The notes below the pieces were generated by a model, which did no database searches, was not told where the DNA came from, and saw only the letters and a list, made by a program, of their open reading frames with translations. DNA of 64,000 nt. Source: Plasmodium relictum. Taxonomy: Eukaryota; Apicomplexa; Aconoidasida; Haemosporida; Plasmodiidae. Shown in pieces: positions 3,362-53,389 of the stretch (position 1 is its first letter; every line of letters begins with the position of its first letter). Where the stretch lies: contig NC_041687.1 in the NCBI RefSeq assembly GCF_900005765.1, positions 310,001 to 374,000 on the forward strand, in the 5' to 3' direction. The position numbers and the translations under genes were made by a program.

Positions 3362-4530
3362 ATTAAAATGAATATACACAATTTAAATATGAACTAATAA
3401 AATATATGAAATCTGTAAATTTTATTTTTTAAAAATATTTAATTTTAAATTATTATGTAATATTTTATTTTTCCTTTATTGTTGTGTTGTAATTTTTATG
3501 CACATAAAAAAAATTTGAAAATACTAAGAAAATATCTTAATTTTTATGATCAATACATAAAAAAATTATTTGGATAATAATTTGCTTCAAAATAATAAAT
3601 AAGAGATATGGAAAACAAAAATAATATTAAGCAAAAATTTAATCAAAGCTAAAATGTTTAAAAGCTAATAAACTTTTATTATGCTTTTTTCTTTTTTTTT
3701 TTTTTTTTTTTTTAATGGAACTAAAAACTACTTAAAAGAGAAAAAATAATTTATAACAAGTAATGCAGGAAAATTTGCATTTTTTATTTTGATAAATAGC
3801 ATATTATTATTTATATGTAATGTCTGAAGTACTAGAAATAACTCTAAGAAATGATCTGTTTTAAAATATTTAATTATAAAACATGAAGCATTGCTTTCTT
3901 TAAATTTAGTTTTTCTATTTTTTTTTTTTTTTATTATCATCATTATATATTTGTAATTATTCATACATTCATTGAATTACATTTTTCTTTTCCTTTCTTT
4001 TTTTTTTCTTTTTTTTTTTTTCTCCATAGTATCAAAAGTATTAATATTTTTTTATTCACCTCAAAAATAAATGATTTGCATGTTAAAAAAATAAAATAAA
4101 TATTCCTTGTTTCACTTATATTTTTAAATGTCATATTTTTAAAGATTTTTATCTCCTTAAAAATTTCATCATTTACTTACATACAATTTTTTATTTTAGT
4201 TTTTTTAAGTTATATACTTATAACTATATATGAAATGTCATACAAAACATATATATATATTCAAAATATCTAATTAACGCAACAATTTTGTTTATATATA
4301 TGTTTTCCATTCTTTATCTTTTCATATTCTTTAATTGTTATGTTTTAATATTGAATACATTAAAGTATCTCTTTAATATTTTGATTACTTTAAGTTTATA
4401 TTTTAAACTCACAATCCCAAGTTTTAGTTGTAAAACTTTTGGTAAAATTACATAATTGCTTAATTTTACTGTTTTATTTTATTCTTTTTTTTTTGTTTTT
4501 TATTATCCATGTGTATTTTTAGCATAAATA
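3362..4530. other. Intergenic region upstream of the BUB1-like kinase
   Basis: About 1.2 kb with long poly-T tracts (for example near 3690-3713 and 4000-4021) and no supported gene. A 78-codon minus-strand frame at 3728-3964 is rich in Phe, Ile and Lys, has no recognisable domain and no splice context, and is most likely chance. Confidence 0.6.
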
Positions 4531-16353: not shown

Positions 16354-17289
16354 ATTACTATATGAAATATTCAAAAACAGAAACTTATAATCTCTGATAT
16401 AGGGTTGTAGTTCCTTTTTTTCTTTTTAATTTTTTTAAATATATTTTTCGTTAAGTAATTTTTTATATATCTTTTCATATATTTCATTTATCCATAATTC
16501 CTATATATGTAATTTATTTTTATTTATTTATTTTTTTTTTTTTTTTGAGCAATTCTATTAAGTATTTATTATATAAATTTTTTAGATAATTTATATAAAA
16601 TTTAAATATATATATTATATACATATATTTATTCATTTAACTATTTATTTATTATAATTAATAACGTTTACATTATTTTTTTATTTTTTTAATTCTACGT
16701 GTTTTTATTTCCTTCCCTTATTTTTACAAAAAAAATTAATTTATATTCAATTTTCTTTTCATTTTTCTAAAGGAAATAAAAACATATTTATTCCTTTATT
16801 AAAATATACATAATAAATGAAAATTATGTGTATCTTTTTAATACATTTTATATTCTTTTTTCTTGTAGTCTTTTTACTTGAACTTTCGAAATGATCCATC
16901 TCTTTAATTTTTTTTTTTTTTTATGTATAAAATACATACTTTTAATTTTTTTTCCAAAAATTCTTCATTTTGACTTTAAAATTTTTAATATCAATAATTT
17001 ATGCTAATTTTTCTTTAATAGAATAATATTTATAAATATATTTTTCTATATTATAGTGTATATGTAATAATTTTTTACTAGTAGCAATTTCATTAATAAT
17101 ATAATTATATTTTTTATACTCATAAGATATTTTATTATTATTAGTACTTTTTTTTTTTTAATTTTGTAAATATAATTAACAAATATTTTTTATTATGAAA
17201 ACATATTTTTATACCCATATGTTTATGTAAATATACAATATATACACACATATATATATATATATGCATATTTTTTTTATTTTTTTAAA
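16354..17289. other. Divergent intergenic region between pseudohelicase and RPA32-like gene
   Basis: About 935 bases between two divergently transcribed genes, so it should hold both promoters. Poly-T tracts (16530-16547, 16909-16922, 17150-17160) and a TA run near 17250-17264 are the only structure seen. Confidence 0.5.
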
Positions 17290-25400: not shown

Positions 25401-26503
25401 GGAATATTCAAGTTATTTAATGCAATTTTTATATGTTATAATTACATATGAATTAAAACCATTTATAAAATCAGAATTCTTATTATTTATAAATTTTTTT
25501 ATTTCAAAAAATATATTTCCTAATTTTTTTTTAATGAATTTTCAAGAGATTCTACAAAATATATTATTACCATTGTGCGTATGGAAGAGTGGATTAAGTG
25601 AAGCGGAAATAAGAAAAGGGGCTTTATATTGCATAAAATCATTGTTTTTAAATAAATTATTTGATATTAAAATATTTCAAAATAATATAATAATTGAAAA
25701 TTTAGTATGTATTCTTAAGTCGTCAATTGATGATGTATGGACTAATGAAAATAGAGAAATTTCTATATCTATAATTGGAGAAATAGTAAAAAATATAAGT
25801 AATAATAATATACTACTTGATTTATTAGATAATTTAGTAAAGTTACTGGATGATTCAAATAAATCGGTTCGTAAATCTTCGGCAATAGCTTTACACTCAC
25901 TTTTTCAAAATAAATATTTAAATTTACCTGATGAAAAATGTGAACATATTTTTCCGATATTATTATTACACATGGATGATGATTACTCAAATTTTAGTAA
26001 AATTATTTATCTTATTTTGTCAGTAGCAAAAAATTTTAACAATGAAATATTCTTGAAGGTATAAAAAATATTTTATTTTATTCTTGTAGCATTTTATCGA
26101 TATATTTTTACATTATTTATAAAAAACATATAAAAAAAAAATGTTATTGCCATTTATAATTAAAATATTTTCTTGTAATTAATGTAAATTACTATTTTAT
26201 AAAACTAATTTTTAAAGAATAATTTATAGACATAATACTAATATTTTTAAGATACTTTTTTTTTTTTTTTCTACATAAATATTCTTTTTCCATTTCATTA
26301 AAAATTTAATTTTACAAATTTTTTAGTACATTGATTTTATAACCTTTTAAAAAAAAAAAAAAAAAAGATCATAATTTCACTATATAGCTCCATTTATTAC
26401 TTTTAATAATCTAATTTTTTTTTTTTTTTTTCTACAGCATGCAAAAGATTCAACCGAGAATTCATTACATGCGAAATCATTTAAAGAAGATTTGATGAAG
26501 TGA
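22445..26503 (+). CDS. Dynein axonemal assembly factor 5 (DNAAF5/HEATR2)-like HEAT-repeat protein, four exons
   Basis: Exons 22445-23080, 23169-23234, 23482-26058 and 26438-26503, all joined in phase 0, give 1,114 residues. Donors are GTAATC, GTAATA and GTATAA. The protein is an array of HEAT helices. ISLSNLVKDPFPLIKKLTCEIL matches the DNAAF5 hallmark, where a DPFPxVK motif precedes a Cys-containing helix. Joining exon 2 (ILKKLLKNLLGSLNIRQHDIRK) to exon 3 (LILKCLKKLMCF) completes one HEAT repeat, which supports the junction. The last 400 residues are again HEAT repeats, including WKSGLSEAEIRKGALYCIKS and LDDSNKSVRKSSAIALHSLF. DNAAF5 is a cytoplasmic factor for preassembly of axonemal dynein arms; in Plasmodium the male gamete is the only flagellated stage. 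It is longer than animal DNAAF5 because of a charged insertion (about residues 345-520). A frame inside intron 2 (23341-23400) was rejected as an exon. Confidence 0.75.
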
Positions 26504-28757: not shown

Positions 28758-29857
28758 ACTTGAAAACTTTCAACTTTTAACAAAAAATTAAATAATGAAA
28801 TATGAAAGTTACTCCAAAAAGAAATAAATTATATTTTAAATATGAAGACAACATAGATTAAAATAAATAAATAAATATATAAAATAGAAAAATCTTATAT
28901 AGCATATTTATATGAAATCATAAAAAATGAGTAAAGAATAAATAAAAAATACTTTAAATAGAGAATATGAAATTTCAAATAAATATTTCTATAACAAAAG
29001 TATAATTAATATAAAAAGAAATGATAATACTAAAAATTATAAATTGAAAATTATCTAAAAGAAAGCATAATAAATATAAGTAAAAATTCAAGGGATTAAT
29101 TTAAAAGAATATAAAAAAAATGATAGAAAAACAAATAATTATATCCTAAAAGAAAATAATTATTCAGTAATTTATTAAACATAATAACGATATTAAAAAA
29201 ATATTAAGATAGTACTTTTAAATATAATTGAATTAATCAAACTTCACGGAAACAAAAAAAAAAAGAAAAAAGAATATTAAAAATTAATAATTATATAAAG
29301 TATGAATATTTCAAAGATATAAAATTTATCTAAAAAAAACATTAAAATTAAAATATGAATAATATTTTTTATGAATAAATAATAATGGCTGTAAAACATA
29401 ATGCAATATATGCATATTGGTAAAGGTATAAATGTATAAATGAATTTAGCAATTAAAAAAAAGTCAGTAAACAATTGTGTTAAGAGTATCTAAATAAAAA
29501 TAATAAATAACGTTGATAAAAATTAAAATTTTATAAAAAAATTGGAGACAATTTAAAAAAATTATAAAATAAAAAAATTGTTCAAAGAGTGAAAATTTTT
29601 AAAAATTGTAGTAAGATAAAATAATATAAATGAAGACCTAAAATTATTCTATGTTTTAAGAAAATTTAAAATTTGTACATTTTGAAATTAAAAAAAAAAA
29701 GGGGAAAAAAAAAAAATATATCCAACTCCAAAGAATTGTAATATAAAACATTAAATAGGATGAATAAATTGAACTAATTAAAATTATTTAGTTCAATAAT
29801 GAAAAAGAATAAAAAATTGATATTGTTAAAATACCTAGAACAAAATTCATATGTGAG
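28758..29857. other. A-rich, stop-dense spacer between the orphan and MATCAP-like genes
   Basis: About 1.1 kb whose plus strand is strongly A-rich rather than the T-rich composition of most other spacers here. All frames are dense with stops. It could be long untranslated sequence of the flanking genes or a decayed coding region; I see no protein remnant I can name. Confidence 0.4.
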
Positions 29858-31126
29858 ATGATGCTTTCATATAAAAAATTGAATAAAAAAAATGGAAAAT
29901 ATTTAAAAAAAGTAGATAAGAAAAATAAAATTAATAATAATAAAGTGAAAAATAAAAAAGCAATTGATACTACAACTATGATTTATCCCAATTATGTAAA
30001 ATTGTTTTTAATACCTGATGAAAGCATATTAAATTTTGTAGACAATTTCATTGAAAAATTATTTAATGAGGACACATATATAAATACAATAGACAAAATG
30101 ATATCAAAGAAAAAATGTATCATTAAAAATTTATTAGAATCACAAAAAAAATTTTTCGAATCAAAAATGCTAATAAATCCAATATTTAACTACAACATAA
30201 CCGATGAAGAAGTAGATAATATTTTTAATAAATGTAGTGGAGATAAAATTGATTTTAACTTATTTTATGAAGCAAGAAGAATAATACAAATAGTTAAAGA
30301 AAAATTTAAAACATATGATAATTATGAAAAATCCACTTTTTGTAATAAATTAGTAACAAAATATGAATTTAAAAATTACATAATGAAATATTTGCAAAGC
30401 AGTGGAATAAAAGACAAAGTTAAAATAGAGTTTAAAGAAAATACCTTATCAGCAGTTCAAGTTTTTAAAAGAGGAAATACTTATTTCATACAACTACAAA
30501 GTCAGGATATTCAAAAAAAATTAATGCAATCTTTATGTGATCATGAAATTGGAACACATTTATTAAGAATGATTAATCATCAAAATAATAATTTAGAAAA
30601 ATATAATATTAATTCATGTCATTCAACTGAAGAAGGTTTAGCTGTTATTAATTCAATGTACACTTTAAGAAAAAATTACTTATTACTTGTTTCTCCTGCT
30701 TTAAAATATTTAACTGTTTGCTTAGGAAATTTTTATAGTTTTTCTAAATTGTATATTTTTTTAAACGATTTTATAAAAGATTCTGATAAATGCTTTAAAA
30801 TGTGCGCAAGAGTTAAAAGAGGATTAAGAGATACATCCATCCCAGGTAGCGTATATCATGATCAATTATATTTTATTGGTTCTTACAGCATACTAAAATG
30901 GTATAAAAATATTAATTTCCCTTTGTTATATTCTGGAAATATAGGATTAAAACATTTAAATGATATTTCAAATTATGTTGATACAACAAAAAACATACTT
31001 CCATCATTTTTATCCAATAAAAAAAAACTATGTATCTATATGAAATTTTTAGAAAAAGTTTCTTACATAAATGGTATAACCCCTGAAAGATGTAGTTTTA
31101 TCAAAAAAAATTTAGGAAATAAATAA
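29858..31126 (+). CDS. MATCAP/DUF1704-family zinc metallopeptidase (putative tubulin tyrosine carboxypeptidase)
   Basis: A single exon of 422 residues. The family's zinc motif is clear: CDHEIGTHLLRMINHQ (H229, E230, H234; HExGTH) followed by STEEGLA with the third ligand glutamate (E258/E259). Downstream blocks such as CARVKRGLRDTSIPGSVYHD and DQLYFIGSYSILKWYKN match the DUF1704 (KIAA0895) C-terminal half with its FxKDxxYxxG-type pattern. Human MATCAP1 removes the C-terminal tyrosine of alpha-tubulin and is a microtubule-bound vasohibin-independent detyrosinase; related proteins trim acidic residues from tubulin tails. The first 40 residues are a basic Lys/Asn extension that may aid microtubule binding. 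Catalytic residues are all present, so activity is likely. The substrate in this parasite is inferred from the family. Confidence 0.85.
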   Translation: MMLSYKKLNKKNGKYLKKVDKKNKINNNKVKNKKAIDTTTMIYPNYVKLFLIPDESILNFVDNFIEKLFNEDTYINTIDKMISKKKCIIKNLLESQKKFFESKMLINPIFNYNITDEEVDNIFNKCSGDKIDFNLFYEARRIIQIVKEKFKTYDNYEKSTFCNKLVTKYEFKNYIMKYLQSSGIKDKVKIEFKENTLSAVQVFKRGNTYFIQLQSQDIQKKLMQSLCDHEIGTHLLRMINHQNNNLEKYNINSCHSTEEGLAVINSMYTLRKNYLLLVSPALKYLTVCLGNFYSFSKLYIFLNDFIKDSDKCFKMCARVKRGLRDTSIPGSVYHDQLYFIGSYSILKWYKNINFPLLYSGNIGLKHLNDISNYVDTTKNILPSFLSNKKKLCIYMKFLEKVSYINGITPERCSFIKKNLGNK

Positions 31127-33730: not shown

Positions 33731-34869
33731 TTTTTTAGTTTTTAAAAATTTAAATCTAAAAGTATAACATAAAAAATTAATTAAAATTTAAGTAAGAAAA
33801 AAAAAAATAATGGAATAGTATAGACAAAAGTATAATTCTTTAATTTAATTTAATTTCATATATTTTTAATTATTAATATTATAATTTATATGGAAACTAT
33901 TATTATAGAATTAAGAATGAGAAAAAAAAGTTAAAATTTTACATATTTTTTTTTTTTCTATGAATATCTTATAATTAAAAAATTATTACGAAAATGATAG
34001 ATACCTTTTATTAAAAACTTGATTATTAAAATTATTATTTAATTAGTTATAAACTTTTTTTATTATAATTGTTATAATGATTTTTATTTCTAATTTTATT
34101 TTTTTTACTTTTTTCTTTTATAAAAATTCTCTTATTTATATTAATACTAATAAAATGAATACATGTATACTTGATATATTTTTTCTTTATTGCGGTATGA
34201 TATTTTTAAATTTAATTATGACGAATAATTGAAGAGATAATTTTTATAATTAAAATTTTTTATGAGCTTTTCTAAAATAATTTATATAATGTAGAATATT
34301 TAAAGACAATACTTTTAATTTGAGAATATTAAGATATTTATGTTTTCTATATTTTACATGCATAGGAGTGCATAGGCATTAATTTATTATTAAAAATAAA
34401 ATATAATATTTAATAGTGGTAGTTACCATATTTGTATCGTTAATAATTCTATTAATTATAAATGAGAATAATAGGTGTTTATATTTAATAATTATAATAA
34501 AAATGAGTAATTACGATATATTATTTTTAATTATTTTTATCAATTAACTATATTACCATTAATTAATATAATAATAATTATAATTAAATGAAAATAATAG
34601 TGGACTAAACTAAAATATTTATATAAATATTTTTTAAATTATGACATATTGAAATGAATTGAAATATCTATAGATATTTTCTCATTGATTTAAAAAAGGA
34701 ATTTTTTTTTCTCATATTGTATTATGTGCAATCACTAAAAGAATGATTGTCAATATTCTAGATAATAAAATAATGTAGAGAAATTAAATAAAAACACTAT
34801 TTAGTTTTTAACATCCTCATTTTTTTACTTTAATATTTAAATATATGTTTTTTTTTATTTTAGACTTCT
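33731..34869. other. Divergent intergenic region, may hide an upstream exon of the giant gene
   Basis: About 1.1 kb between divergent genes. A frame at 34078-34233 encodes a hydrophobic start (MIFISNFIFFTFFF...) that could act as a signal peptide, and a T-rich acceptor-like tract ends at 34863 just before the first exon of the giant gene. I could not join the two in phase. No other gene is visible. Confidence 0.4.
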
Positions 34870-37800
34870 ATGAATAATCAGCATGGTAATTATCAAGTGT
34901 ATTTATCGATTTCAAATTACATGTTTTTTTTTTTGAACGGTTAAATGTCTTATTAGTACTTAATGTACAACAAAGGAATAATTTTATTTTTTTTTTATTT
35001 TACTAAATTTATTTTTTGAATCCTATATAACCTATCAACCGAGAGTATTTAAAAATGTTTTTGATGAAATATAGATTACTATTTTTTGAGCTAATAATTT
35101 TTTTTTTCATATTTCAGAAAAGTAATAAATATTAATTTTACTCATATTCATTGTAATATATAATTTTTAAAATTATATTTATACATGCCTATTTACATTC
35201 TAATTTATATACATTTAGATTTTAATTGTAAACATTTTCCTCTGAAAATACCATTTTTTAAAAAGGTAACTAAAAAAAAAAAAAGAATAGAAATATTAAA
35301 TATGCAAATTAATGCTAAATAATATAAAATCATTTTATATTGTTTAAATTCTATATTAACTTTTTCTTTTTCAATTAATACAGTTCTTTAAAGAATCAAA
35401 AGGTAATTACAATATATGAAATATATAAATATATATACTTATTTATTTATTTATTTATTTATTTATTAAATTAGTGCCTTTAGGAAATGTGGTGGTTCAA
35501 AAATATTCATATGGTGGCTTTTTACATTTACATAAAGAGTTGTCAAAAAGACAAATTGATATTATACAAGAAATAAAAATATATAATAATTTATCAGATA
35601 TTTTATATAAAAATAGGAATATTAGTAAATATAATGATAGTTTTTATGATAAGTTTTATGATGAATGCTCTCCTTTCATAGAAAAATTATACACAGAGAC
35701 TTTTCTAGATATTGATAAGTCACTAACACTATTAAATGAGTTACTAATAAAGGAAGTAAAATATATGTTATTTACAAATAATAATATTATTTCAGAATAT
35801 AGTAGGGAAAATGAAGAAAATTTTAGAAAAAATCTAGTAGATAAGTTGTATGAAGAATTTTTACATAAAGAAAAATTAGAGGAAAAAGAGAAAGCATTAC
35901 TTTATTTCAATAAAATTAATATGGCTTATAAACTAAGAAAAATTCTAGACTTAAACTCTATTGATGAACCTGAAGCTCATGATATTATTCTTAGTTTAAT
36001 ACAAATTGATACATCTAAAATATATATAGATCAAAAATCTATTTTTAAGAATTTTTATAAAATTTTAAATTCACAGAAACCTTATTTGTTATTAAAAGAA
36101 TATTTTAGAGGTGATGAGGAAGTTCTTAATGAATCATTTTTGAGAACCTATTGGATATGCCTAAAAAATTTACATTTTTATCTTAAATCATATAATTCTC
36201 ATGTATTGCTCATTTTAGGTGATGAATTTAAAGAAGCTACTCTTAGATATTTAGATGATGTGATCTGTAAAAAAAAAAAAAGAGCTATTAATAGTGATCA
36301 AGAAAGTTATTTTCTTAATAAATATTATTTCTTTGACAGTTTTTTAGCATTAGTTATTTCGAAAGTATATAATTCAAAAATAAGCATTTTAAATGAAAAT
36401 GGAATGTTAATATCTATTCGCATAAATACCTTACCTGATAAACTAATTCAATTAGTATCTACAAAATATTATTCAAAAACTTTGATTCCTCATAGATTAT
36501 TTGATGGTATTACTTATTTTTTAGTTGATTATCATTTCTCTATTTTAAATACAATATCCAATTATAAAATATTACCATTATACATCAATTCCAACTTAAC
36601 GCAATTCAATAAAAATAAGTTTACACTTATAAATGAAAGTAAAATACATAATTTTAAAATGCATATAAATATATATATTCATTCTCTAAACATTTATATA
36701 GAACAAATTAATATTTATATAAGGAAAAAAAAAAAATATATTAATATTATATATATATGTTTTATTTCTTCCTATATATATATTCATGTTATTAAAGTGC
36801 CACAGAACTTGCATTTTAATATAATTAAATTTTTTTTTTTTTATATTTAATATTAGCTATGAAAATTATATCGGTTGATTCACAAGAGAATGAGCAAATT
36901 ACGAGGTGCATAAAAGTGGAACATTTTGAAATATCTCAGCAAAATGATAATATGCAAACAACATCTTATAGCTCATTATTTGAAATTGCAAATAAATATA
37001 ATGAACGCAATAACATAAAAGAGAATAATATTTATGTTTTATTACTTAATATTGTTAAAGGAAATTTAGTAAATTTAAGTTTATTATTTTCTCTAGAAAT
37101 ACTTAACTATCTTAATGAACATTGTGAAGAACTTGATTCAGAAGAAATAGAAGAAATAGAAGAAATAGAAGAAATAGAAGAAATAAATAAGAAAGAAGGA
37201 ACAAATGAAGTAGAAGAAACAGATAAAGATAATGAATTAGATCTTCATCTTCTTTTTCCTGATGAGTCAGAAGAAGATATTTTTGATAGAACAATGGGGA
37301 ATGACACTTCTAATGATTTAACTAAAAATATAAAATTAAAAAAATCACATTCTGAAATTTCAAATGAGATAATAGATACCAATAATGATGAAGAAAAATT
37401 AAAATCATATGGAGAACAGTCTACATCTGGAAATAAAAACTCGCAATCTCTTTTTTCTAAGTTTAAAACATATACATCTTCTGTTTTTTCTCCATTCAAA
37501 TATGTTTATTCTCGGTATGATAAATCATCCCAACCTGTCTCTTTATTTCAATCTACCACCTCTTCTCAACCTAGCACTTCATCCAATCCTAGTACCTCAT
37601 CCAATCCTAGCACTTCATCCCATCCTAGTACTTCGTCTCATCCTAGCACTTCATCTCATCCTAGCACTTCATCTCAACGCAAAATTGGTACATCACATAT
37701 AGATACTAGTTCTTCAGATAATCATCCAGGGAGTTTAAAGGGTAATAATGATAAAATAGCATATGATTCAAATGGTTTTTTTGATGATACAATCAATTCA

Positions 37801-40800
37801 AATGAAAAAAATAAAGAATATATAGAAGACATAAATAATGTAAATTATTTTAAACATATTTGTAAAAAAAAAAAAATTATGGAAATAGAAAAATTAAAAA
37901 GTATTAGAGAATTAAAAAAAGACCTACTAAGAACTAAATACTCTATTTTTAATAAAAAATCTTTATTTCTGAATGATGAAAATTTAAAAAATATTTTTGA
38001 ATCCACTTTTTTTGACTCAAATCAAATGAAAAACTCAATAATTAATATAATTTCTTCTTTTGAAATAGATAATTTAAATGAATTATTAAACGTTCAACTA
38101 AGTGCGTTAAATTCCCACTTCTTTAAGTCTAAAAATATATTTGCCAACAAAAAAAAAACATTATCATTTTTTAAGTTAAAAACTAATCAAAAAGTATTAA
38201 ATAAAATTGAAACAAAGTTATATTCCGTATTTACAATTGTATGGATACACTATACGAACTATTTAAGAAAAGTATTGGATATATTTTCTACAAATGAATT
38301 ACAAATCCTAACAAATATGTATTATTCATTATTCGAAAAAAATAAAGATGATTATAATTTAAGCCTTTTAAACTATTTTGGATTCACAGATGCATTGATG
38401 ATGTACATAATTTTAATTTATTCAAAGCGTAATGTATATTTTATAAATGATACTAAATCCATATATATTCAAAATAAGTCATTATCAAAAACGAACGAAT
38501 TACACATTTTTCAATTATATGATGGGAATTTTTATGAAGTTAAAAATAAGTGTGCATCTAATATTTTGAATAATAATTTAGTCAATAAAAATATAATAAA
38601 TGCAGGGTTTGGCTTAAATTTTTATTTTGTTAAAAAAATTGGTAAGACATTTATACATATAATTAAACACTGTTATATTTATTTGTTTATGTTTTGACAT
38701 ATATTATATATATCATATATATATTTTTATTTGTATAGATAAGTCTATTTCTGATAATAAAAATGAGACACAATCAGTAGAAAAAAAAATGTTTTTAGTT
38801 AAAAGGGGATTGGATACATTGTTAAAATCTGTAGAACGTGAAAATTTGTCTTATAATACAAATCAAAAAATGGTTACAGAGAAATATTCATTTCTGACTA
38901 TTTACAGAAATGAAAATGCTAATAATATTAATCACATTCCTTCATTAATTACAGCTATTGTATGTGGGCGTTTAAGAGAAATAGATATGATAAAAAAATG
39001 TATCAACAATGATAAAATTTTTTCTTCTTTTAGTAATAAACTTAATTTTATTATACACAAATTCTATGATTATAGCACAGCCTTCAATGATATTTCTTTT
39101 TTGTCAAGCAAACAATCTTATCAAAATGTTTTTAGTAATTTTTATAATAACGAAAAAATACGTAAGTATAAAAATACAAATTTAAATAGAAAATAAATTT
39201 TATAATAAATTAGTTTATTAAATTTAAATTAATCGTCTTTTTTTATATAAGCTATTTTTTATACTAAAATTTTTTCCGAAATATATTTAAGTATACATAT
39301 TATCATATATATATATATTTTTCTTCTGTAACAGTTTTGGGTACTTTGTTATTACATCTTGAAAATATGAGAAAAAATAAAACAAATTTGTCGAAGGAAA
39401 AAACAATTAGATATCATTTTTCATTTATTTATAATCTACTAAAAAAGCATATCTTAAAAAAAAGTGTAAACGATAATACAATTAAAAATCATTTGTATGT
39501 TCTAAAAGAAATGATTTTTAAATATGAATTATATAACGAAAAAATATTTACAACTCTTACAATATTAAGTGATCGAGAGAGAGGTAAAAATGAAAAAAAT
39601 TATAAATTATACAAAAGCACATTATAATAATTAATTTTCTTTTTATGCATCAATAATTATAATTCTTTATTTTTACTTGTTTTTTCTTGTTTCTATAATA
39701 TATTATTTTATTTTCTTTATTTTTTTTTATATATATATTTTAATTAATTATCTTATTTTATTTTTTTCTTTTCATATAAAGACAATGAACAATATATGGA
39801 GGTGCTAGATATTATTTCGTTAGTTTTATATAATATGAATATCCAAGAACTTCAGGAAAATTATATACAAGGTTTTCCTCCACTTAGTAGTGAAATATTA
39901 GTTCTTGATTTAATGGATGTAATAAATATAATGATATTTTTTAATAATGTTCTAAATAAAATTAAAGTGACAGAAGATTTTAATATATTAATTGATAAAG
40001 AGAATATTATAAATCTTCACCTAAATAATATTATTCAAGTCGTTGAGATGCTTTTTAATGGTTATGAAAGTTATTACTATGATATTATAGGTGATAATAT
40101 AAGAGATATAATCAAAGATACATTATTAAATAAAATAGAACTTTTATTTATTCATTATAAAGGATTTATGGATGATGATATTAAAACATTATCATCTCAA
40201 CTTACTAAAAACTTTAAAAAAATGAAATCTTTTTTAATGTTTAAAAGCCCCAGTAAATATTTTTTTCCAATCGAACTATCGTATTGTAAAGTAAAAAATT
40301 TTGAAGATATTTTTTTTTTAGATTTAATTGAATATTCTTACACAAAAGATACTAGTTCTCATTTAAATCCTCTAAATCAAAAATATGATGTAATAGATGA
40401 AGAAATGCTGCAATTAATCCAAGACGGAAAAAACATAATTTTATATTATCATGTATTTGATATACCTAAACCATTTAATGAAAAACTATTCGAACATATT
40501 TTCAATTTTGTACGAAGTAGGACTCCTAATAGTTTTTTTGTTAAAAAAAATAAACTATGGGGACGCAACGGTTATATTTTTATACAATAACATACACATA
40601 TGCATATATATATATATATATAATATCTTATTTTAATGATATATGTTTTGATGCATTAGTGTTGTTAATAATCCTGTTTTTTTTTTTTTTTTTTTTGTTA
40701 TTTTCTATAATTTACATATATTTTAAAATATTATTTCATTAGAATGGTAGTTAATTATAATGTAAATATATGCAGCATAATTATTGTTTTGAACTTTTTC

Positions 40801-43800
40801 TTTTTTGCATTTTCTATAATTTATTTTATTTTATTTTATTTTTATTTTTATTTTTTTAGTTACAAATAAAATGTATGATAAAATGTGTGAAGTAATTTTA
40901 CAAAGAATAGTCAGATACTATTTTGAGAATGATCTCATAAGTGATTTAGTCGGATATATGTTGAAATATGATGAAGTTAATATACAAGTTACAAAATTTT
41001 TAAATGAAGACAATAATAAAAATCTATATAAATGTATAAAAGAACAATGGTTTTACAAATTTAATTTAAATAATATGAAATCATTCATATCAAATGCGAA
41101 AATGAGTTTTAATTTAAATGCTAATGACTTAAAAGAATGTATAAAAAATCATAAACCCAATTCTCATTTAAACGTATTAACAGATATTATGTTAAATACA
41201 TTAGCTTATGAATTAAATCAAATTTTTAAGATAAAATATCAATACAATTCTATTTTTTCTATAATGGACATAAAAAGAAAAGATATAACTAATAAATTAT
41301 ATTCCAAAATAAATAATAAATTGAATATTAAGGAAAAAATTGCTCTTTTTTATTACTCAAGAAATGCATTATTACATCTAATTGAAATATTAAGTGATCA
41401 TTTTAAAGTAACAATACTATATTTTTCAGAAAATAAAAAAGGTGGATATGATTTGCATAGTTATAAACATAATAATAACAAAAATAAAGGTAGAATTATC
41501 ATATTAAAAGACAGTCATAGTTTTAAAATATATAATCCAAATAACAGACTCTTTAAATTAGATATGAATGATTTAAGAGAAACTTGTAAGAGAAAAAAAA
41601 AAATAAAATAACTCTAATTAATATAATGCTATATAAGTATAAAGAATATATAACAGGAAAACATTATGTATATATATATTTATTTATTACATATATATTT
41701 ATTATGTTTTTTTTAATTTTTATTTTTTATATTATTTCAGCTGTTATTCACTTATATTATGATGAATTATATAATAAAAAAATGTACTTGGAATCAATTA
41801 TAAATGAATACAAATATTACAATAATTCTTCAGAAGATGAAATACATAATATTATAAAAGCTTATTTACATGAAAAAAATTATGAGAATTTACAAGGAAT
41901 GATAGGGATTATATTAGAACGAAATGATATAGGCAATTTCAAAAAATCAAAATTGAAAAATATAATTGATTTAGAAATTGTACAAAATAGAAATGAAAAA
42001 GTTAAAAGTAACTACTTAAATTTATTATATTTAGAAGTATTTTCTATTTTTGGTTATGGTTATTATAGTAATATGGATAATTTATTAAGGGATTTGTTTA
42101 TAGCTGATAAATATCTATTAGAATTATATATGAAATCGCTCTCAAAATTGAAAAAAAAGTTTGATTTTATGAATAAACTTAAATATATACAACTAATTAT
42201 TTCTTCAATAAAATATATGATAAGGGAAATAGAAATTATAATAGAGAAAAAATATATAGAAAAAGGAAAGAAAAAAAAAAGTATAATATGTTCATTATTT
42301 AAAAAAAAAAAAAATAAAAAGAGAATGTTTGACTTTATAAAAATGTTTCCATATTTTTCTAATAAAAGAAAATTAAATTATAATAGACCATATGGTCATG
42401 AAATAGAAATACTTAAAATTGATGAAAATGTGAAAGAAAAAATTTTAGAAGAAGTTGAAAATTATAAATTTTCAATATCATCTAATGAAAAACAACAATT
42501 CTATTTTATATCTTTAGTTGGGTTAGGTTATTCTTACATTCGAAAATTTAGTGAATTGAAATTAGGCTTACAGACATCTATATCATTAAATAATATAATT
42601 ATTTTACGTAAGTTATACTATTTATTTTATGTAAATGAATTAATGGATTTAACAAAATTTATAATTAGCATTATAATAAAAATATACAATAAATTTTTCT
42701 ATAAAAAAAAGGATTTCATTAAAGATGGAGAAATTACGTTAAGTAGAGAAAAAAAGAATGAATTTTCTCGTATCATTTTATTGAGAGGATATATAAATAT
42801 TGATAATTTAGATTATAAAGAAAAAAAAGAAAATTCTGAAAATTTGTTAAATAAGAAAGAAGACGATAATTTTCATACATTTGAATATTATTTAGATTAT
42901 ATAATTAGTAATGTACATAATTTTTTTTATTTTATTTTAAACTGCAAAAAAAATAAAGAATGCTTTTTTAAAAAAGCTGAATATGCTACACAATTAATAA
43001 CAAATTATCTTAGAGATCAACCATTTAATGAACATATGATATGGCTATTACCAATATTATCTGGCTATTTTAGAAGTTCATTGAATGTATTAAGCGTGAA
43101 TGGAGATGACATATTTTTATATAAATATCAGGATGATAATGCAGTGAAATTTAATATACAAATTTTAGCTGAAGAAGGAAATATGTATTTAATTTTACCT
43201 ACTTACTTTTTGTACATAAATATATTAAATATTATAGGAGACACTGTGATAAGAAATGAAAGAGAAGTTTTCAAAGTTGATAATCCATTTTCGCCATCTA
43301 TTTATAAAATATCGAATTGTTCTCTAAGTTTAGATGAATCTATAAAAAATTCAGACAAATCTAACTATTATTACAAAAAGTACTTTGAAATAATTAGGGA
43401 AAAAATTAATTTATTTTTATCAAATAAAATTTCGTTATATACTTTGTTAATATCATTAAGAGAAGATATATTAAATTTTAAGCATTTGATGTATTTCGAA
43501 AATTATACGAAGTTTGTAAAATTAATGGATTATTTTTTTTTAGTACTTAAATCAAAAATACAATTGAATATTGAATTTTCTTTAGAATCAATTTTTAACT
43601 CTCCAAATACGTTAGTTAAGGATTCTATAAATAATATTTATGATTATATTGAAAAAAATGAATATAACCTTTTTGGTATAGATGCTAAAGAATCATACTT
43701 AAATATATTAAAAGGTTATGAAGAAAATAAGTATTACCCCAGCAATTTTATGAGATTGATGGATTTTTTGATGAATGGAATAAAATATGAAATTATTGCA

Positions 43801-46800
43801 CAAAGTAAACTATTAAAAAAGTCAAAAAAAGTAAATGAAATAAAGAAAATAAATCTATATATAAATAAATTAAAAAATTTGGAATCTTTTGTAATATGTG
43901 AATATGTAAAAATTACAAATAATATGATGAAATATGTTAAAATAAATTTAGATAACATAATTAATTATGTGATATTTAAAAGAGAAAATCAAAATAGCGT
44001 TTTCAATATTATTAACAAGGCACAAATATTATATGATTGTTGTTTAAAATATGATTTTAATGAACTAGGTGCAACAAAAATGACAAAAAGGTATTTTAAA
44101 GAGTTAGAAAAAAAAAATATAAAAATTTCTAATTACTGGAAAGTTTTAAAAAAATTGTCAAATGAAGAGTTAAATTATGAGGACTGGTATTCTATAGCAT
44201 CCAAAATACAAGTAGATTTTTTTAAAAAAAATGAACTAATTTATTTTAATTTTATGAGAGAAGATAATTTTTGGAAATTGGGTTCCAGAAAGTATACTAA
44301 ATCTATAATGGGTCGTTTGAAGAAAAATAAATTATATATAGAAAAAAAATATTTAAAAAAATTAAGGTCTAAATATTTAACTTATGATGAGTGGAAAAAC
44401 ATACTATACCAAGCAGAAATACGAAGCAAAATAAGAAATGATATAGATGTGATTCCAATAAATAAAGAGCATTATTACATATCCGTTATATGGAAGTTTT
44501 TCAACACAGAAGTAACTATAAATGGAAGTGATATGAAATTTGAAGATGTTTATACAAAATTAAGGAATTCTCATAAAAAAGAACTAACATATTTATCATC
44601 ATTAAATAAAGAAGATATATATAATTTATTTAATTCAATAATAATATTTCATAGAATAGTAGAATCAATTGATAAGGATAAATTCAATATATATAAAAGC
44701 TATAGAATTACCAATATGTTATTTGATGAATTGGCGAATCGGGGAATTTATATATCAGGAGATTCACCAGTAACAAAGGAATATATTCAGTCTATATTTA
44801 ATTACGAATTATGGAGAAAAGAAATTAAAAATGTAAAAGTTAGTAATATACTTATTAGATCATTAGTGCCTACGAAATATGCAACTTATTTTTCTTCAGC
44901 ATCAGTTTTTAAATTGCTTCAATTTTTTGTAAAAACTAAGTTGAATATAGGTCTAATAAATTTACTATCTCATATACTTTACAGTATTTTAAAATTAGGT
45001 AAAACTAAAGGTGAAATTTTTAAAATCATTGCATCAGAAGGAATTTTACGTGGTAGTTTAGATGTATTTAGACTCATTTTATTAAAACTTAATGTATCAT
45101 TAGATGGATTAACAATGTGGTCTACTTTCGTTTTAACAACTATGCATAAAATAATGGAGGAATGTCTCCTTCAAGATTTAATAGAGAGCATAGACTTTAG
45201 AAGAATTTTTTCGAACTTAATTTTTTTATTACATAACTCTATTGAAGAATGTTATTTCAAAGCAATATTGGATTCTTTATTATTTAAACCAGATGTTAAG
45301 GAATATATAAATAATAATGAAAAAAGAATTAAAAAAATTCTTTTGCATTTTAGAAATTTTTTTCTTTTAAATTTTGGAAGTTACGTGAATCTATTTCAAC
45401 ATTTATATGATGGTATTGAAAAAAAATTTATAACATATATGAAGTATTACATTACAATATTCATAAATAACATTTTACCATTTTCAACTGAAATAACTGA
45501 GAAATTTAAGCAAATTGAAGTGCAGAGAATTGATCTTCTTGAATTCGTTTCTATTGTTGATGAAAAAAGTTCCTCTTACATATATGAAAATATTATAGCT
45601 CTAATACAACATGAAGATTTTATGACTAAATTTAGATTATATACTGAAAAAGTTCATTCCCAATTATTTTTTAATAAGAAAAAAGTAAGATTAACTAAAA
45701 TGGAATTAATAGACAAAATGTATAATAGATGGATACAAAGTATATCAAAAGATGAAGCAAAAAAATTCAATTTATGTTATCAAAAGTTAAAGAAAAAATT
45801 TTCTAATTCAAAATTATCATTTTTAGAAAAACCATATCTAAAATCTTATAATAAGGAATTCTATAATTTTAAATACGAAATTAAAAAAGATGATAATACC
45901 GATAATTTTCGAAATATAGAATATGGAGGATATATGAGTACTAATTATCCTGGTGAAATGAAGAACAAATTTCAAAATTCACGAAATATGTTGAATCAGA
46001 CAGAATCAAATAAATTTAAGAGCAATTTCAATCCTAATAACTTAAATGAATATCATCGAATATTTCATAGGGATAAATCTAAAGATAATATTAAGTTAAA
46101 AAAAGAAGAAATATACAAGCAGATGAATCATATACATAATTTAGAAAACCATAATTTTCACTTAAATAATGGTGATAAAAATGAAGAATACTATAGCATA
46201 AGAAGAAAAAATGCAAAAAAAAATAATATATCTTTTTTACAAAATAACAAAATGAACAAATACAAAAGTTTTTATCTTATAGAATCATATAACTACCGAA
46301 CCTTAAGTTGTTTAGAAAAATTGTTCATATATGGTTATGATAATAAAAATAACCTTTCTGAAAATAAAATAAAATTTTGTAGTTATTATTATAGCCAACA
46401 TTGGAGTAAAAGGGTATATAAAGTTACTTTAAAAAAATTAAGTAGCCGAGAAAAATTTATTTATGGTTACAGCCATAATTTATTTTTAACTTTTAAAGCA
46501 AAAAATATAAAATGTGAATTGCATTTTAAAATTAATATTACTATGGAAACTTATAGTAATTCAAAAATTCAAAAATTTAAAAATATCATAGCGGATTTTA
46601 ATATATTTAGAGAAAATAATGAATTATGTCTTTTAATTATTAACAGTAAAAGAAATAAAGATAAAATTGGAAATATACATATATGCTATCAAGCAGAACT
46701 TGTTCCATTTTACAAAAGTAATAATATTAATGATCACTTAAAAAAAATATTTAGCGAAATTAATAGTTTTGATAATAAAATGGAAACGAATACATCTGTG

Positions 46801-49800
46801 AACAAAAAAATAGGAGATAAACGTAATTCTAATAACAAATACCCTTTTAATATACTTGATAAAAATAAGTCTAAAATACGCATAAATTTAAAAAAAAATA
46901 AGAAACATATAAATCAAAAAAAAACAAGTAACTTGCATATTACTAATGAGGAAGCAGATAATGAAAAGAAAGAAGCTAATAAAATTAAAGAAGATTATAA
47001 TAATGCTGTTAATATAACCCCAAGTGATATAAAGAAACACAAAGGACGTAAGGATAAAAAAAATTCATTAAAAACTAAATTAATAGAAGTTAAAGATCGC
47101 ATAAAAATGTTGACGAAGAAAATAAAAAATATTTCAAAAAAAAAAAGAAAAGAAGGTACTCAAAATAATAAATTAGAAAAAATTAAGGATACCTTGAAAT
47201 ATTTAACACAAAAAAATATTATAAATCAATTACTAGAATATGAATATTATCATTCCACTAAATGGAGTTCAAGTATTTTTAGTGTTACTATTGAAAATAT
47301 GAATGGAACAAATGAAAACATGAAATTAATATTAGAGCTCGGCAATTATAACTTGAAAACATATTTTGAAGTTGATATAACGGATAACAATAACATTGAA
47401 TCATTACAAAAATTAGATAATTTTATTAAAAAAAGCAACGTGAAAGATTATATAACACAAAAATTAAAAAAATATAGAAAAATATATTTTATTTTAAAAC
47501 TTATATTTAAATTTAGAGATGAAATTAAAAATGTTTCGTATATAAAATCAAAAAAAAATTATCTAAAAATTGGTGATGGCGAAGAAGTAAAAGGAAGAGA
47601 TGCAGAAGACGAAGAACATGAAGAAGATGAAAATGAAGAAGAGGATACAGTAGGACATGTAAGAAACGAGAATGAAACATTACAAACGTTACAAAATTTT
47701 TATAAAAATAGAAATAGAAAAGAAAAATCTGATGTAGAAGAACATTTAAAGTTCACATGGTATAAGTATGATTATAAAATGCAAAGTGAAGCTATTTTAT
47801 CAGTTAGATCAATTAATCCATTAAAATTAAAAGATGATAAGAGTGAAGTTCTATGTGAAACTAATTCAGATATTAAAAATGTATTAAATTTTTTTAGTAT
47901 TCAAAATGATAATATAAATATAATAAAAAATGTAAAAAGAGATTTTAATAGTTCGGATAATAAAAATAGTGATACAAGTTCAATTGAATCAGACCTTAGT
48001 TCAAATGATGATGAAACATTAGATGCAGACAACAGAACTACAGCAAATAGTCCTAAAGTAAGTTTTTTTTCTGATTATGCAAATTATTTCAATAAGATTT
48101 ACCCTTTAAGTGAAGAAGAGAATTATATGATGAAAACAAGAATGAATAAAACATCTGCTTTACTTAATTATAGACTTGTTTTATTAGCATTTGTAATAAT
48201 TAAAACTAATAGCCTAAGTAACATAAAAAAATTAAGTGCTCTTACAAAAGATTTTTTAAAAGAAAAATACAAAAATTATAAAAACTTTGAATTTCATCAA
48301 AATAAATTATTTAATAATAAAAATATATATATTGAAAATAAACACTACTTAATAAAAAAAAGATTAGAATGTTTAATTGGTTTAGATTTTTATAAAACTT
48401 TAAAAGTTTCTCTAGAAAAAAAGAACGTATTAAATGATTTTTTGGAAGATTTAAGTGTTCAAATTTCTCATATAAATAATTTTTTTTATAAGTATTATTA
48501 CACTGATAATTCAAATATTCATTCTTCTAGTTTTTACTTAAATAAATTAAAAAATATTAGAAATTTATGTCCAATTATTTATAAATTAAAAAATAAAGAG
48601 AAAATAAATATAGAAGATACTTCTAAAATAGATAGTTCTATAAAATTATCTTCAAGCAAAAACGAAATAAAAGAACTAGAAGAGTGTGAAAAGAGAGTAG
48701 GTTTTTATGGAACACATGTAACGTTTTTTAACAAAACATTGGATAATTTTATTGGTAAAAAAAAAATTAAAAATATAGCCATGTTTTCTTATGAATGTGA
48801 TAAATCCATTTATGAAGGGAAGAACTTGAGCGAATTAGATGATAATCATAATAATTTTTGTATTAATATTTTGGAAAATAATCTCCAAGAAAATGGTGCG
48901 CCCATTAAGCCAAATACTAATTGGATAGATATGCTATATAATGCTTTTTCATCAAAAAAGAATTATAAATATAAAGGGACTAGTTATAGTGAAATAAAAT
49001 GTTTTGCTTTTGCAGATAGAGATGAATTAGAGGAATATCAGAAGAAGAAAGATACCAAATGTAGAGTAACTATTTTGAATAAAACCATTAATGTTTTACA
49101 ACAATTTATTGATAAATATTACAAGATAAAAAATGAAGGAATCAATAATGGAAATGCATATGATGTTTATGCTTTGTATAAAAACATTTACACAGTAATG
49201 CTATACAAGTTAATGTTTGAAACGAAATCTTTTAAACCTTTACGTATACAGCAGAGATTAAACTCAGTGGGAATTAAGTATACGAAGTTATTATATAATA
49301 GTGAAAATTCAACAATTTTTTTTAAACATATGTTAGAAAAAACTAGTTCACTTTATTTAGAAATAGACTTTCTTTATAATGAGCATGTTTTCTTAAGAAA
49401 TATTTATTTCCCTCGCGAATCTGTTGATATTATGGTCTTTAATCATAAACCTTTTGATAAAGGTGCTTTTGGATATAAATTAACAGCAGATCCAAAGCAT
49501 ACTATTAATGAAGGAGAGGAAAATACAAAAATTTATTCTTTTTTTGTTCTTAATTTGTTAGGATTCTATCCTGATATTCAAAGAGTACTTCTAAGAGCTT
49601 CAGAGGATTCAGAACTTATTTATAAATTATTAAATATAAAGTTAAATGAAATAAAAAAAGAAAAAAAAAATGAAAATAATAATGATGAAAATGGGGAATA
49701 TGAAGAAATGCCAAAAAGTATTGAACAACAAATGGAAGATGATGAAAAAATGGAAAACGAAAAAAAACGATTTAAAGAAGTAGTTAAAAGACCATTTAAT

Positions 49801-52422
49801 AAAATATATAATTATTTAATTTCTAAAAAAAACAAAGCACAGGACAATATATTAATGTATACACATATAGGAACTAAACAACGTGATGAAGAAGACAAAA
49901 AATATGAAGTAACAGATTTTAAGTGGATGGGAAGCAAGCAAATAAATAGCATTAAACGACTAATTGTTGATCATACATTAGTTGACTATTTTATAAAAGG
50001 AATAAAACTAATGAATTTAAAGAACTATTTAGAAAATGATGACTACTTGGAAGCTTATAAATATGCACTTGATGTAGAGTTGAAGAAAGAAAATTTTTAT
50101 CTTCACTTTATTAAAACAACTCCTACTTTTAATTTTGACAATTATAGAGTTGATCATTTGTTATTATTTGCTTTTTACTATGGTTTTGCTGACTTAATGA
50201 GAACTAGAAGGGAATATATAAATTTAGAATCAAGTTTAAATAGAATAATAGAAAATAACAAGTCTGTTTTTGTTTATAAAACAAATTCCTACATAAATTT
50301 TAATTTAGAGGAGGAAAAAAGACTATTATTAAATGAACAACATGAAAAGCTGGCAAAGTTTGTTTATAACTGTGCCATACAACATAGATTTCTTCAAAGA
50401 AATGACATATCATTTAAGTTTAAAAATGAACAAATTCAAGAATTAACAAATTTATTAAATAATAAAAAAAATATTTATACCCAAAATGATATAAGAGAAA
50501 TTATATCATTTGTCGAGGTATTTGTTGAAAATTTCGTTTATACATTAAATAATTATCCTTCGAGTATGAGTTCAAGTAAGTATTCATCATTTTATGAAAA
50601 CTTCATTAAGAATGTAAAAGAATTTTTTTTCTCATTTAATAAAGAAAATAATTTAATATATTTAATAAAGAAAAGGGATATCAATTTTAATACGTCAACA
50701 ATCAAGCTCTTAAACGAAAAATCAACCTTGTTAAATTTAATAAAATATTTTTTTAAATTCATCTTTTTAGCTGCTACAAGATCGTATAATGTTGATTCTT
50801 TTGTAGAAAAAGTTTTATATTTTAATCAAGAATATAATGAAAATATTAATTCATCTGCTCAAACAATAAATAGTGATGATACACAAACCAACTATGATTT
50901 AGAACGTAGCAATAATACAGAAAATACCAATGCAACATATAGCTTTTTAGAAAATTTTTTATATATTCCTAATAAAAATAATATATCATCTAATAATGGT
51001 AGAAACAAAAATAAATTATTAAAACTAATTAAGTTTAAGATTTTAAATAATAGAAATAATTGTAATGAACCATATTCAACTAATGATACTAAAACAAAGG
51101 ATAAAAAAAATAAAAAAAAAGGAAAACATTTTTCATTATTAAGTAAAAAATTAAAAAACATTATCAAAAAGATAAAAGTCAAATTTGGTGGAAAACAAAT
51201 GCCATTGGATGTTGAACCAAGTGATGTAAGGAATAATGCAATTCATCAAAATTTTTTACTAAAATATGGAAATAATAATGAAAATATTACAAAGAAGCAA
51301 AATAATATAAAAAAAGATAAAAATAATGGAAAGTTAAATTTAGAAGAAGAATTCTATGGAGATAAACATACATTTGAAGGTGTAATAAGACACTTACTTC
51401 TAGATAGGGCACGTGAAAAAGGTCTTTTAGATGATGATTTATTAAAGGAAGAAAATGTGACAAATAGGAAGAGTCACATAAACATAAATAATAGCACAAA
51501 AGAAAAAGTTCTAGGCATTCAAAAGATAGATTTTAGTAATTCTTTAGCACTTAAGAAGTTAAATAATGAATACAATTTTATTGAACTAAGTATAAAAAGT
51601 CCTTTGGGTATTAGTAGAGTTAAACATGCTTTAGGTAACGCAATTGATAATGTTTATGGTAGTGTAAAAAGTAGTTTGCTTTCATTATCATTTCTTTATG
51701 GTCTTGATTTTTTTTTAAAAAATGGTCTTTATTTTTATAGAAGTAGATATGCTGCAAAAAAAATTACATATTATGCAAAAATGTATTTAATACAATACTT
51801 AGATGCTCTATTACTAATTGTTAGAGATTATAAATTGGGATTATCTTTAACAAATACCAGCTCTATAAAACATGGCTTATTTGATATATGTCTATTTAAT
51901 TTACAAAATATTTCTGTGTCTTTAAAAAATATATTAAATATTATTGATGTAGAACAAATTGAAAATATATTATCTAATTTAATTGCTGTTATCCACATGA
52001 ATTATACAGGAAATGCTCGCTTTATTGAAGATCTTATTAAAAATATTAATTACGTATTATCAAAAAATGCTACTCTAAAAAAAATATTTGGAAATTTCGT
52101 GTCTTATCTTACAATTTCCTCTATACAAACATTTGAATTATATTTTCATTCAAGGTATAAAAAGAAATTGCTAACATTTATTATTTCTATCCTAAATAAT
52201 TTATCAGGAACAATTTCAAGTATATTTAGTGAACCATTTTTTCAATCCTATATTTGTACTCATTTAATAAAATTAGGAGAGTCCTTTATAAGTGAATTTA
52301 ACACAGAAAGTCCTGTATATGGATTTTTTATGGATGTTGTAGAAATTAACTTTTTTGATATTTTCATTTCATATATATTTTATTATCTTCCACAGGTTGT
52401 TAAAGATTTTACTGAAAATTAA
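34870..52422 (+). CDS. Giant protein of unknown function (about 5,299 residues), ten exons
   Basis: Exons 34870-34885, 35219-35265, 35384-35402, 35475-36638, 36857-38641, 38739-39161, 39335-39583, 39782-40570, 40860-41585 and 41741-52422. Intron phases are 1,0,1,1,1,1,1,1,1 and the joined length is exactly 5,300 codons with stop. Most donors are GTAAxx (one GTTATA). The first three exons are micro-exons, so the 5' end is the least certain part; no signal peptide is visible on the assembled start MNNQHDFNCK. Much of the protein is helical and well conserved in texture. Recognisable items are a Glu/Ile repeat (37141-37185), a hexapeptide PSTSS repeat (37570-37677), Lys/Asn-rich linkers, and a duplicated module starting YYYSQHWSKRVYKVT and YYHSTKWSSSIFSVT. 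The C-terminal 330 residues are hydrophobic helices of regular complexity. I do not recognise a catalytic domain. A role in secretion or invasion organelles is a guess from size and texture only. Confidence 0.75.
37141..37185 (+). repeat. Glu-Glu-Ile coding repeat in the giant gene
   Basis: Five consecutive copies of GAAGAAATA encode EEIEEI... within an acidic region of exon 5 of the giant gene. Typical replication-slippage repeat. Confidence 0.9.
37570..37677 (+). repeat. 18-base minisatellite encoding PSTSS(N/H/Q) x6
   Basis: Six tandem 18-base units, each CCT-AGC/T-ACx-TCx-TCx followed by AAT, CAT or CAA, encode Pro-Ser-Thr-Ser-Ser-X at about residues 654-689 of the giant protein. The array is preceded by further Ser/Thr/Gln residues. 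Clustered Ser/Thr with Pro is the composition of a flexible, possibly O-modified linker. The final residue changes Asn-Asn-His-His-His-Gln along the array, which suggests recent unit duplication. It is GC-richer than its surroundings. Confidence 0.95.
46384..47600 (+). repeat. Duplicated module inside the giant protein (two diverged copies)
   Basis: Copy 1 begins about base 46384 with YYYSQHWSKRVYKVTLKKL, followed by NLFLTFKAKNIKCELHFKIN. Copy 2 begins about base 47245 with YYHSTKWSSSIFSVTIENM, followed by MKLILELGNYNLKTYFEVDI. The shared pattern is Y-Y-x-S-x-x-W-S-x5-V-T and then an alternating hydrophobic strand pair. The strand pattern and an ending like NELCLLIINSKRNKDKIGNI in copy 1 recall beta-sandwich (C2-like) domains, but no calcium-binding aspartate cluster is visible. 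A Lys-rich linker separates the copies. Confidence 0.55.
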
Positions 52423-52744
52423 ATTTTTTTACAAAATAAAACGAAAATATAAAAAAAAAAAAACATTAAAATAATTAACAAATTCAATATTTTAGAAATT
52501 TAAAAAAATAAATTACATAGTAGAGAAAGATAAGAATAACATTTTCCTTTTTTTTTAGAAATTAAAAAGTTTTATTTAAGCTTATTAATTACACATATAT
52601 GCTCTTAAAGTTTTTATAGTTTATCATATAACAAAAAAAGAAAAAAAAAAATTTATATATTTATTCTAATTTTTTTATATTTTCCATTTTAAAAAATAAA
52701 AATTTTATAAATATAAGCACACATAATTATTTGATTAAAAAAAT
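52423..52744. other. Convergent spacer between giant gene and PRL gene
   Basis: About 320 bases between two convergent 3' ends, with A and T tracts only. Confidence 0.5.
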
Positions 52745-53389
52745 TCACATAAAATGACATTTTCTTAAACAATTTTTTTTTTTTTTTTTTTTCTTATATG
52801 ATTTTAAAAATTGCAATTGTCTTTTATTTATTGCGCCTTTTCTTCGTTCACGTATAAATACAATTGCATCAATCGGATCCATACCAAATTCAATCAAAAC
52901 AATAGAAGCCAAAACTGGTGCTCTACCTAATCCTGCTACACAATGAACAGCAACAGCACAATTATTTTTTATTACATTATTAACGACAGTTAGCCAATTA
53001 TTTACTATATCGTCAGTTGGTGCATCTCCATCTGGGAATATTAATTCATGAACATTAATCCCTGCTTGCTTTATTTCTCCATCATTGTATGTTCTTTCAC
53101 ATGTTCTAACTAAATCAGTCACATTATAATTTTTCATTTCTTTTATATATAATGGCAATAAATCATTTGTCGGAGCATCTAAAATTAAAATTTTTATTTT
53201 TCCATGTTCTATTTTTGTAGGATGATTTAATACTGGATTCAAATAATCCAAATTATAGTTAGCGTTTCCCATATATCTTTCCATATCGAATAATTTTACA
53301 TCTACACAATTAAAAAGTTGATCTGTATTATCCTGTTTATTACAATAATCAGAGTTTTTATATAAATTATAATCAGTATAATTCTGCAT
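52745..53389 (-). CDS. PRL: PRL-type protein tyrosine phosphatase with C-terminal prenylation motif
   Basis: A single exon of 214 residues. The PTP signature is VHCVAGLGRAP (C150, R156; HCxxGxxR with the Ala-Pro that marks PRLs). The general-acid loop is FPDGDAPTDD (residues 118-127) and the substrate-side motif is ILDAPTNDLLPLYIKEMKNY. The C-terminus is a lysine cluster followed by CLRKCHFM, so CHFM at the end is a CaaX box and farnesylation with membrane attachment is expected. Family knowledge: PRL phosphatases are small, prenylated and linked to growth control and Mg transport regulators. P. falciparum has one PRL with the same CaaX ending, as I recall. The first 50 residues are an Asn/Asp/Tyr-rich extension not found in animal PRLs. 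Confidence 0.95.
   Translation of the reverse strand: MQNYTDYNLYKNSDYCNKQDNTDQLFNCVDVKLFDMERYMGNANYNLDYLNPVLNHPTKIEHGKIKILILDAPTNDLLPLYIKEMKNYNVTDLVRTCERTYNDGEIKQAGINVHELIFPDGDAPTDDIVNNWLTVVNNVIKNNCAVAVHCVAGLGRAPVLASIVLIEFGMDPIDAIVFIRERRKGAINKRQLQFLKSYKKKKKKKNCLRKCHFM

Follow-up and report, generated by a model that had tools for sequence, protein, structure and literature searches.

A conserved ten-exon gene of Plasmodium relictum encodes a giant protein, possibly a secreted scaffold with an OTU-like segment

A 64,000-nucleotide stretch of the genome of Plasmodium relictum, an avian malaria parasite (contig NC_041687.1, positions 310,001 to 374,000 of the forward strand; hereafter the window) contains a row of separate-looking open reading frames, which raises the question of whether they make one giant protein or several smaller ones, and of what such a product would do. 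The first part is answered by the gene structure, its conservation, and the similarity of its N-terminus to that of homologues: the frames belong to a single ten-exon gene (35055-52422, +) with 15,951 coding nucleotides for 5,316 residues plus a stop codon, spanning 17,368 bp or 27.1% of the window, in agreement with the roughly 5,300 residues and 27% of an earlier sequence-only reading of this DNA. For the second part, the favored account, to which a probability of about 0.5 is given, is that of a single-copy gene for a secreted, HP1-silenced, non-enzymatic scaffold or binding protein orthologous to PBANKA_0934600, in which at least one segment with the OTU deubiquitinase fold, its catalytic residues missing, would act by binding. 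The giant presumably ranks with the largest proteins conserved in malaria parasites.

All nine introns are of the GT-AG type, measure 72-289 bp, and keep the reading frame, while exons 4-10 form a single frame with zero internal stops; moreover, the GC fraction is 0.16-0.24 in the exons vs 0.07-0.14 in the introns. Specifically, intron 1 is in phase 1, intron 2 in phase 0, and introns 3-9 in phase 1, the last being the seven consecutive phase 1 introns that had been predicted; the splice-site check gives nine junctions in place of the predicted ten. The least typical donor, GTTATA of intron 8, was missed by the splice-site pattern and taken directly from the sequence, and homology ends one base ahead of it. 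Six consecutive exons (exons 4-9; 35475-41585, +) are in phase 1 at both ends, and phase 1-1 exons are the class favored in exon shuffling of extracellular modules.

Eleven homologues were found: ten are Plasmodium proteins of 5,307-5,633 residues, each annotated as unknown, hypothetical, or uncharacterised, and the eleventh is an incomplete model from P. cynomolgi (2,360 residues). The tblastn matches, listed for six of the 11 (five of them full-length), place the P. inui, P. coatneyi, P. knowlesi, P. ovale, and P. berghei proteins collinearly through all seven large frames, so that the comparison with other Plasmodium species suggested earlier comes out in favor of one protein. The best local alignments to the ten species reach 43-53% identity, much like the 40-54% of a neighboring gene outside the avian species, and the ten homologues share 30 invariant Cys residues and a layout of conserved blocks alternating with variable polar linkers. 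A row of several independent genes, to which the AT-rich gaps between the frames and the restriction of the P. cynomolgi model to the C-terminal part would lend themselves, is scarcely credible, as ten species have a single continuous predicted protein and the frame is kept across every GT-AG junction.

The gene does not resemble a repeat antigen: with Tandem Repeats Finder (TRF) at a score of at least 80, positions 34000-53000 contain no extensive tandem repeats of that kind, and the earlier description of long stretches of normal complexity is right because merely two arrays, of 84 and 124 bp (208 bp), occur, both in exon 5. No second copy was found in the P. relictum genome for the four stretches of the giant that were searched, and the gene appears to be single-copy as far as those stretches show. 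The protein matches include no relatives outside Plasmodium, within a search reach limited to shared 5-residue words. Loss of the gene from the P. falciparum group was considered and set aside: no Laverania protein was found, yet the P. relictum and P. gallinaceum proteins are equally missing, and because P. relictum is unlisted though the window encodes the giant, the missing Laverania match points to a database gap. In the same database, the neighboring gene has matches in P. relictum, P. gallinaceum, P. falciparum, P. reichenowi, and gorilla parasites; for the giant, the public avian model may be absent, broken up, or flagged as a pseudogene. PMC7156373 reports that every Plasmodium species has an orthologue.

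The start of the gene departs from the one first proposed. The frame beginning at 34870 reads MNNQHGNYQVYL (MNNQHGNYQ...) and matches none of the homologue starts compared, and the N-terminal match to P. coatneyi (MFLINPKIII...) and P. inui (MFLINHKIII...) sets the start at 35055, where the window encodes MFLMKYRLLFFELIIFFFIFQK; the gene again comprises seven large exons and three upstream micro-exons. In ungapped comparisons, exons 1-3 are identical to the P. coatneyi N-terminus at 19 of 44 positions (0 of 20,000 shuffles as good) and to that of P. inui at 14 of 44 (2 of 20,000). Upstream exons or an upstream start are needed because exon 4 has no in-frame Met ahead of its residue 97. Among the ten full-length public models, eight have another start, without the micro-exon N-terminus, and the true N-terminus is probably missing from them; the hydrophobic segment is conserved in both models that cover the region. 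Judged by its look rather than with a predictor, this segment very probably acts as a signal peptide. An alternative is a cytosolic or nuclear scaffold, with a hydrophobic N-terminus that is no signal peptide or with micro-exons unused in most transcripts, and it draws on the eight public models, on the assignment of the signal peptide from the look of the sequence alone, and on the usual cytosolic location of OTU folds. It is nevertheless improbable, given the agreement of exons 1-3 with two independent gene models across 44 positions and the lack of a Met before residue 97 of exon 4.

In the favored account of a secreted protein, a short signal peptide, its coding sequence divided among micro-exons, would direct the giant into the secretory pathway, and the product would be soluble and large, a scaffold, adhesive, or matrix protein of the vacuole, a secretory organelle, or the surface. 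The proposal of a soluble protein goes along with the homologues, in which no strong transmembrane span appears: no 19-residue window of the ten reaches a Kyte-Doolittle value of 2.0, bar the N-terminus of P. coatneyi. Of the structural, scaffolding, or secreted-organelle role suggested earlier, the secretory destination gains from the signal-peptide-like N-terminus and the orthologues; the structural or scaffolding part is still inferred, and a scaffold or binding role can be put forward tentatively.

Searches of the giant by sequence against Pfam, NCBIfam, and the PDB returned nothing convincing, in keeping with the initial statement that no domain could be named; at the level of predicted structure, a model of part of exon 10 points to an OTU-like fold without the catalytic residues. 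With the AlphaFold model, the first 13 of 89 PDB matches in Foldseek are all OTU proteases (E 0.22-0.96, none significant singly), and in Foldseek and VIA-align the OTU matches span the whole domain with the β-strands in place. On this model, an OTU-like fold of the segment listed in Table 1 is reasonably likely. The mean predicted local distance difference test (pLDDT) score of this part of exon 10 is low, unrelated helical rows in VIA-align reach a Z similar to that of the OTU rows, and further rows are FF-domain-like at model residues 877-982. Structure models are confined to parts of exon 10, with exons 4-9 and positions 45337-48306 and 50827-52422 lying outside them; a second model (48307-50826) has a mean pLDDT of 35.5 and, because it is too poor to read, its 0 of 15 OTU matches make a weak control only.

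No OTU match to Pfam came from scans of pieces of the window, and a PF02338 search of the P. relictum genome found the parasite's own OTU and did not match the giant. Several further results weigh against the OTU-like fold. A profile of three OTU sequences (P. relictum's own and two human) showed no preference between 97 forward and 97 reversed slices of the giant, and among 903 slice pairs compared for internal repeats the best hhalign probability was 6.1%. The two best forward slices for the exon-10 core fall on the exon-9 core with the register preserved (scores 22.0 and 21.2), a match that is not significant, at least one of 81 reversed controls having reached 22.9; the best match of the exon-9 core (25.8) and the top two of the exon-4 core (22.7 and 21.9) are slices that were not proposed as OTU-like. 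Further OTU-like copies in the giant are doubtful. The boldest proposal is unlikely: degenerate OTU-fold domains in a row (exons 4, 5, 9, and 10) would make the giant a secreted array of pseudo-deubiquitinases, which would bind ligands, ubiquitin-like or of another kind, where host and parasite meet, and would be encoded by an HP1-controlled, variantly expressed single-copy gene across Plasmodium. Somewhat less unlikely is a secreted scaffold of mostly helical, lineage-specific folds in which the OTU resemblance would be an artefact of a low-confidence model: the low mean pLDDT, the absence of an OTU signal by Pfam, PF02338, and the three-sequence profile, and the similar Z of unrelated helical rows agree with it, whereas the concentration of the first 13 of 89 matches in one fold family, over the whole domain and with the β-strands placed, does not.

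If the OTU-like fold is accepted, its catalytic residues can be sought, at positions set by eye from secondary-structure elements and the sequence pattern rather than by a residue-level structural alignment, and hence dependent on the fold assignment. The expected Cys region reads FSIPSDNMKPYYFISL in P. knowlesi, FSISLDHYKQDYYFLSL in P. vinckei, and FSISSNEKQQFYFISL in the window; the 56 residues aligned around this site contain no Cys in any of the ten species, and the window has none there either. The expected His place is occupied by Met in 10 of 10 species and in the window, with a His four positions earlier in the three rodent species. Should the fold be right, it follows that the domain is a pseudo-enzyme, which would bind and not cut because the catalytic residues are missing, and the giant as a whole probably works by binding rather than cutting. 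The same residues bear on the idea that the giant is catalytically active as a deubiquitinase or a cysteine protease, of the OTU type or another, with its substrates in the secretory pathway or in host ubiquitin: the fold matches are active OTUs and the 30 invariant Cys lie elsewhere in the giant, but with no Cys and a Met at the expected places in all ten species, such an activity is very improbable.

Table 1. Exons of the giant gene and OTU-like segments (window positions).
Feature	Position	Strand	Description
Exon 1	35055..35121	+	start codon, signal-peptide-like MFLMKYRLLFFELIIFFFIFQK; ends in phase 1; GT-AG intron next; match to P. coatneyi and P. inui
Exon 2	35219..35265	+	47-nt micro-exon, ends in phase 0; encodes FNCKHFPLKIPFFKK
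Exon 3	35384..35402	+	19-nt micro-exon, ends in phase 1; encodes FFKESK
Exon 4	35475..36638	+	388 codons, phase 1 on both sides; tblastn 59-63% identity to five full-length homologues
Exon 5	36857..38641	+	1-1; ends conserved, middle variable and S/E-rich with the only two tandem arrays; tblastn homology
Exon 6	38739..39161	+	1-1; tblastn homology
Exon 7	39335..39583	+	1-1; tblastn homology
Exon 8	39782..40570	+	1-1; GTTATA donor after; tblastn homology
Exon 9	40860..41585	+	1-1; tblastn homology
Exon 10	41741..52422	+	10,682 nt, ends at TAA stop; tblastn homology
OTU-like fold, probable pseudo-OTU	42385..43206	+	AlphaFold model residues 215-488; Foldseek, VIA-align, BFVD; interrupted by a low-confidence stretch
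OTU-like sequence pattern in exon 4, speculative further copy	36116..36523	+	by eye; repeat tests not significant
OTU-like sequence pattern in exon 9, speculative further copy	about 41150-41569	+	by eye; in-register, non-significant profile match to the exon-10 segment

The gene neighborhood suggests a counterpart in better-studied species. Downstream in the window follow a dual-specificity phosphatase, presumably PRL, a UAA transporter, and a UBA/ubiquilin protein, an order that presumably fits that of P. falciparum, where PRL is PF3D7_1113100, DSK2 PF3D7_1113400, and MAPK2 PF3D7_1113900 (PBANKA_0933700). The PCYB and PCOAH gene numbers place the giant and the HEAT gene near each other. By gene order, the orthologue is presumably PF3D7_1113000 in P. 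falciparum and PBANKA_0934600 in P. berghei; the identity with the latter, from synteny, is probable. PMC7156373 calls PBANKA_0934600 a "large, conserved protein" and counts it as one of two heterochromatic P. berghei genes with a central position on the chromosome; according to the paper, this gene went uncalled in an earlier HP1 study in spite of the occupancy visible in its profile. By analogy with the P. berghei gene of that paper, silencing of the giant gene is inferred: HP1 heterochromatin would keep it off, with expression starting in a fraction of the cells or in an unprofiled stage, as proposed for cap380. An unnamed conserved gene, which may or may not be the present one, is HP1-enriched in P. 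vivax and P. knowlesi according to PMC5853956. Literature on guessed gene numbers of P. vivax, P. knowlesi, and P. falciparum held nothing attributable to the giant, nor did the accessible parts of PMC7958875 and PMC9927496 contain anything on it, and no domain assignment was found in the literature searched, supplementary files lying outside the search.

Elsewhere in the window, a frame at 23482-26064 (+) is 100% identical to a P. relictum protein with the UniRef name dynein axonemal assembly factor 5, and another at 29813-31126 (+) matches MATCAP, a microtubule-associated tyrosine carboxypeptidase (Pfam E 3.4e-11). Two frames have no Pfam match at 0.001: one of 763 codons (14134-16425, -), and one of 2,342 codons (4528-11556, +) with a long EK/EI-rich repeat stretch at ~6.7-7.6 kb and, toward its 3' part, a kinase-like LHGDIKIDNFLI motif; this frame may encode a divergent kinase of the BUB1 type.

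The public AlphaFold proteome sets do not include very large proteins, and structure surveys may have missed the giant for this reason. With a signal peptide absent from most models and a possible pseudo-OTU fold, "unknown function" can be broken down into testable questions: the site of secretion, the cells in which the gene becomes active, and the possible binding of ubiquitin-like proteins. Provided that the synteny holds, its P. berghei orthologue is one of two odd heterochromatic genes that one study reports from the center of chromosomes.

Among known systems, the giants of other Plasmodium species represent the same gene, as judged from their length, the order in which conserved blocks follow one another, and best-local identity, and differ in that eight of the ten public models lack the signal-peptide micro-exons present in the P. 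relictum sequence. Cap380, the oocyst capsule protein, is a large secreted protein, as the giant would be. It is encoded by the other chromosome-central heterochromatic gene of P. berghei in PMC7156373; cap380 transcripts are reported to rise in ookinetes and the gene to be essential for oocysts, whereas PBANKA_0934600 is called redundant for transmission. OTU deubiquitinases (OTULIN, OTUB1, OTUB2, and viral OTUs) have 5-12% identity to the giant's segment, which, unlike them, lacks the catalytic Cys and His, has no Pfam OTU match, is apparently secreted, and is part of a protein of 5,316 residues. The accessible part of a Toxoplasma OTU survey (PMC10038098), in which the present gene is not mentioned, describes PF3D7_1350500 as a cryptic split OTU of P. 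falciparum found by structure only. The likeness to the giant's segment lies in an OTU fold, in the giant a probable one, missed by sequence searches and revealed by predicted structure, and in an insertion that interrupts both.
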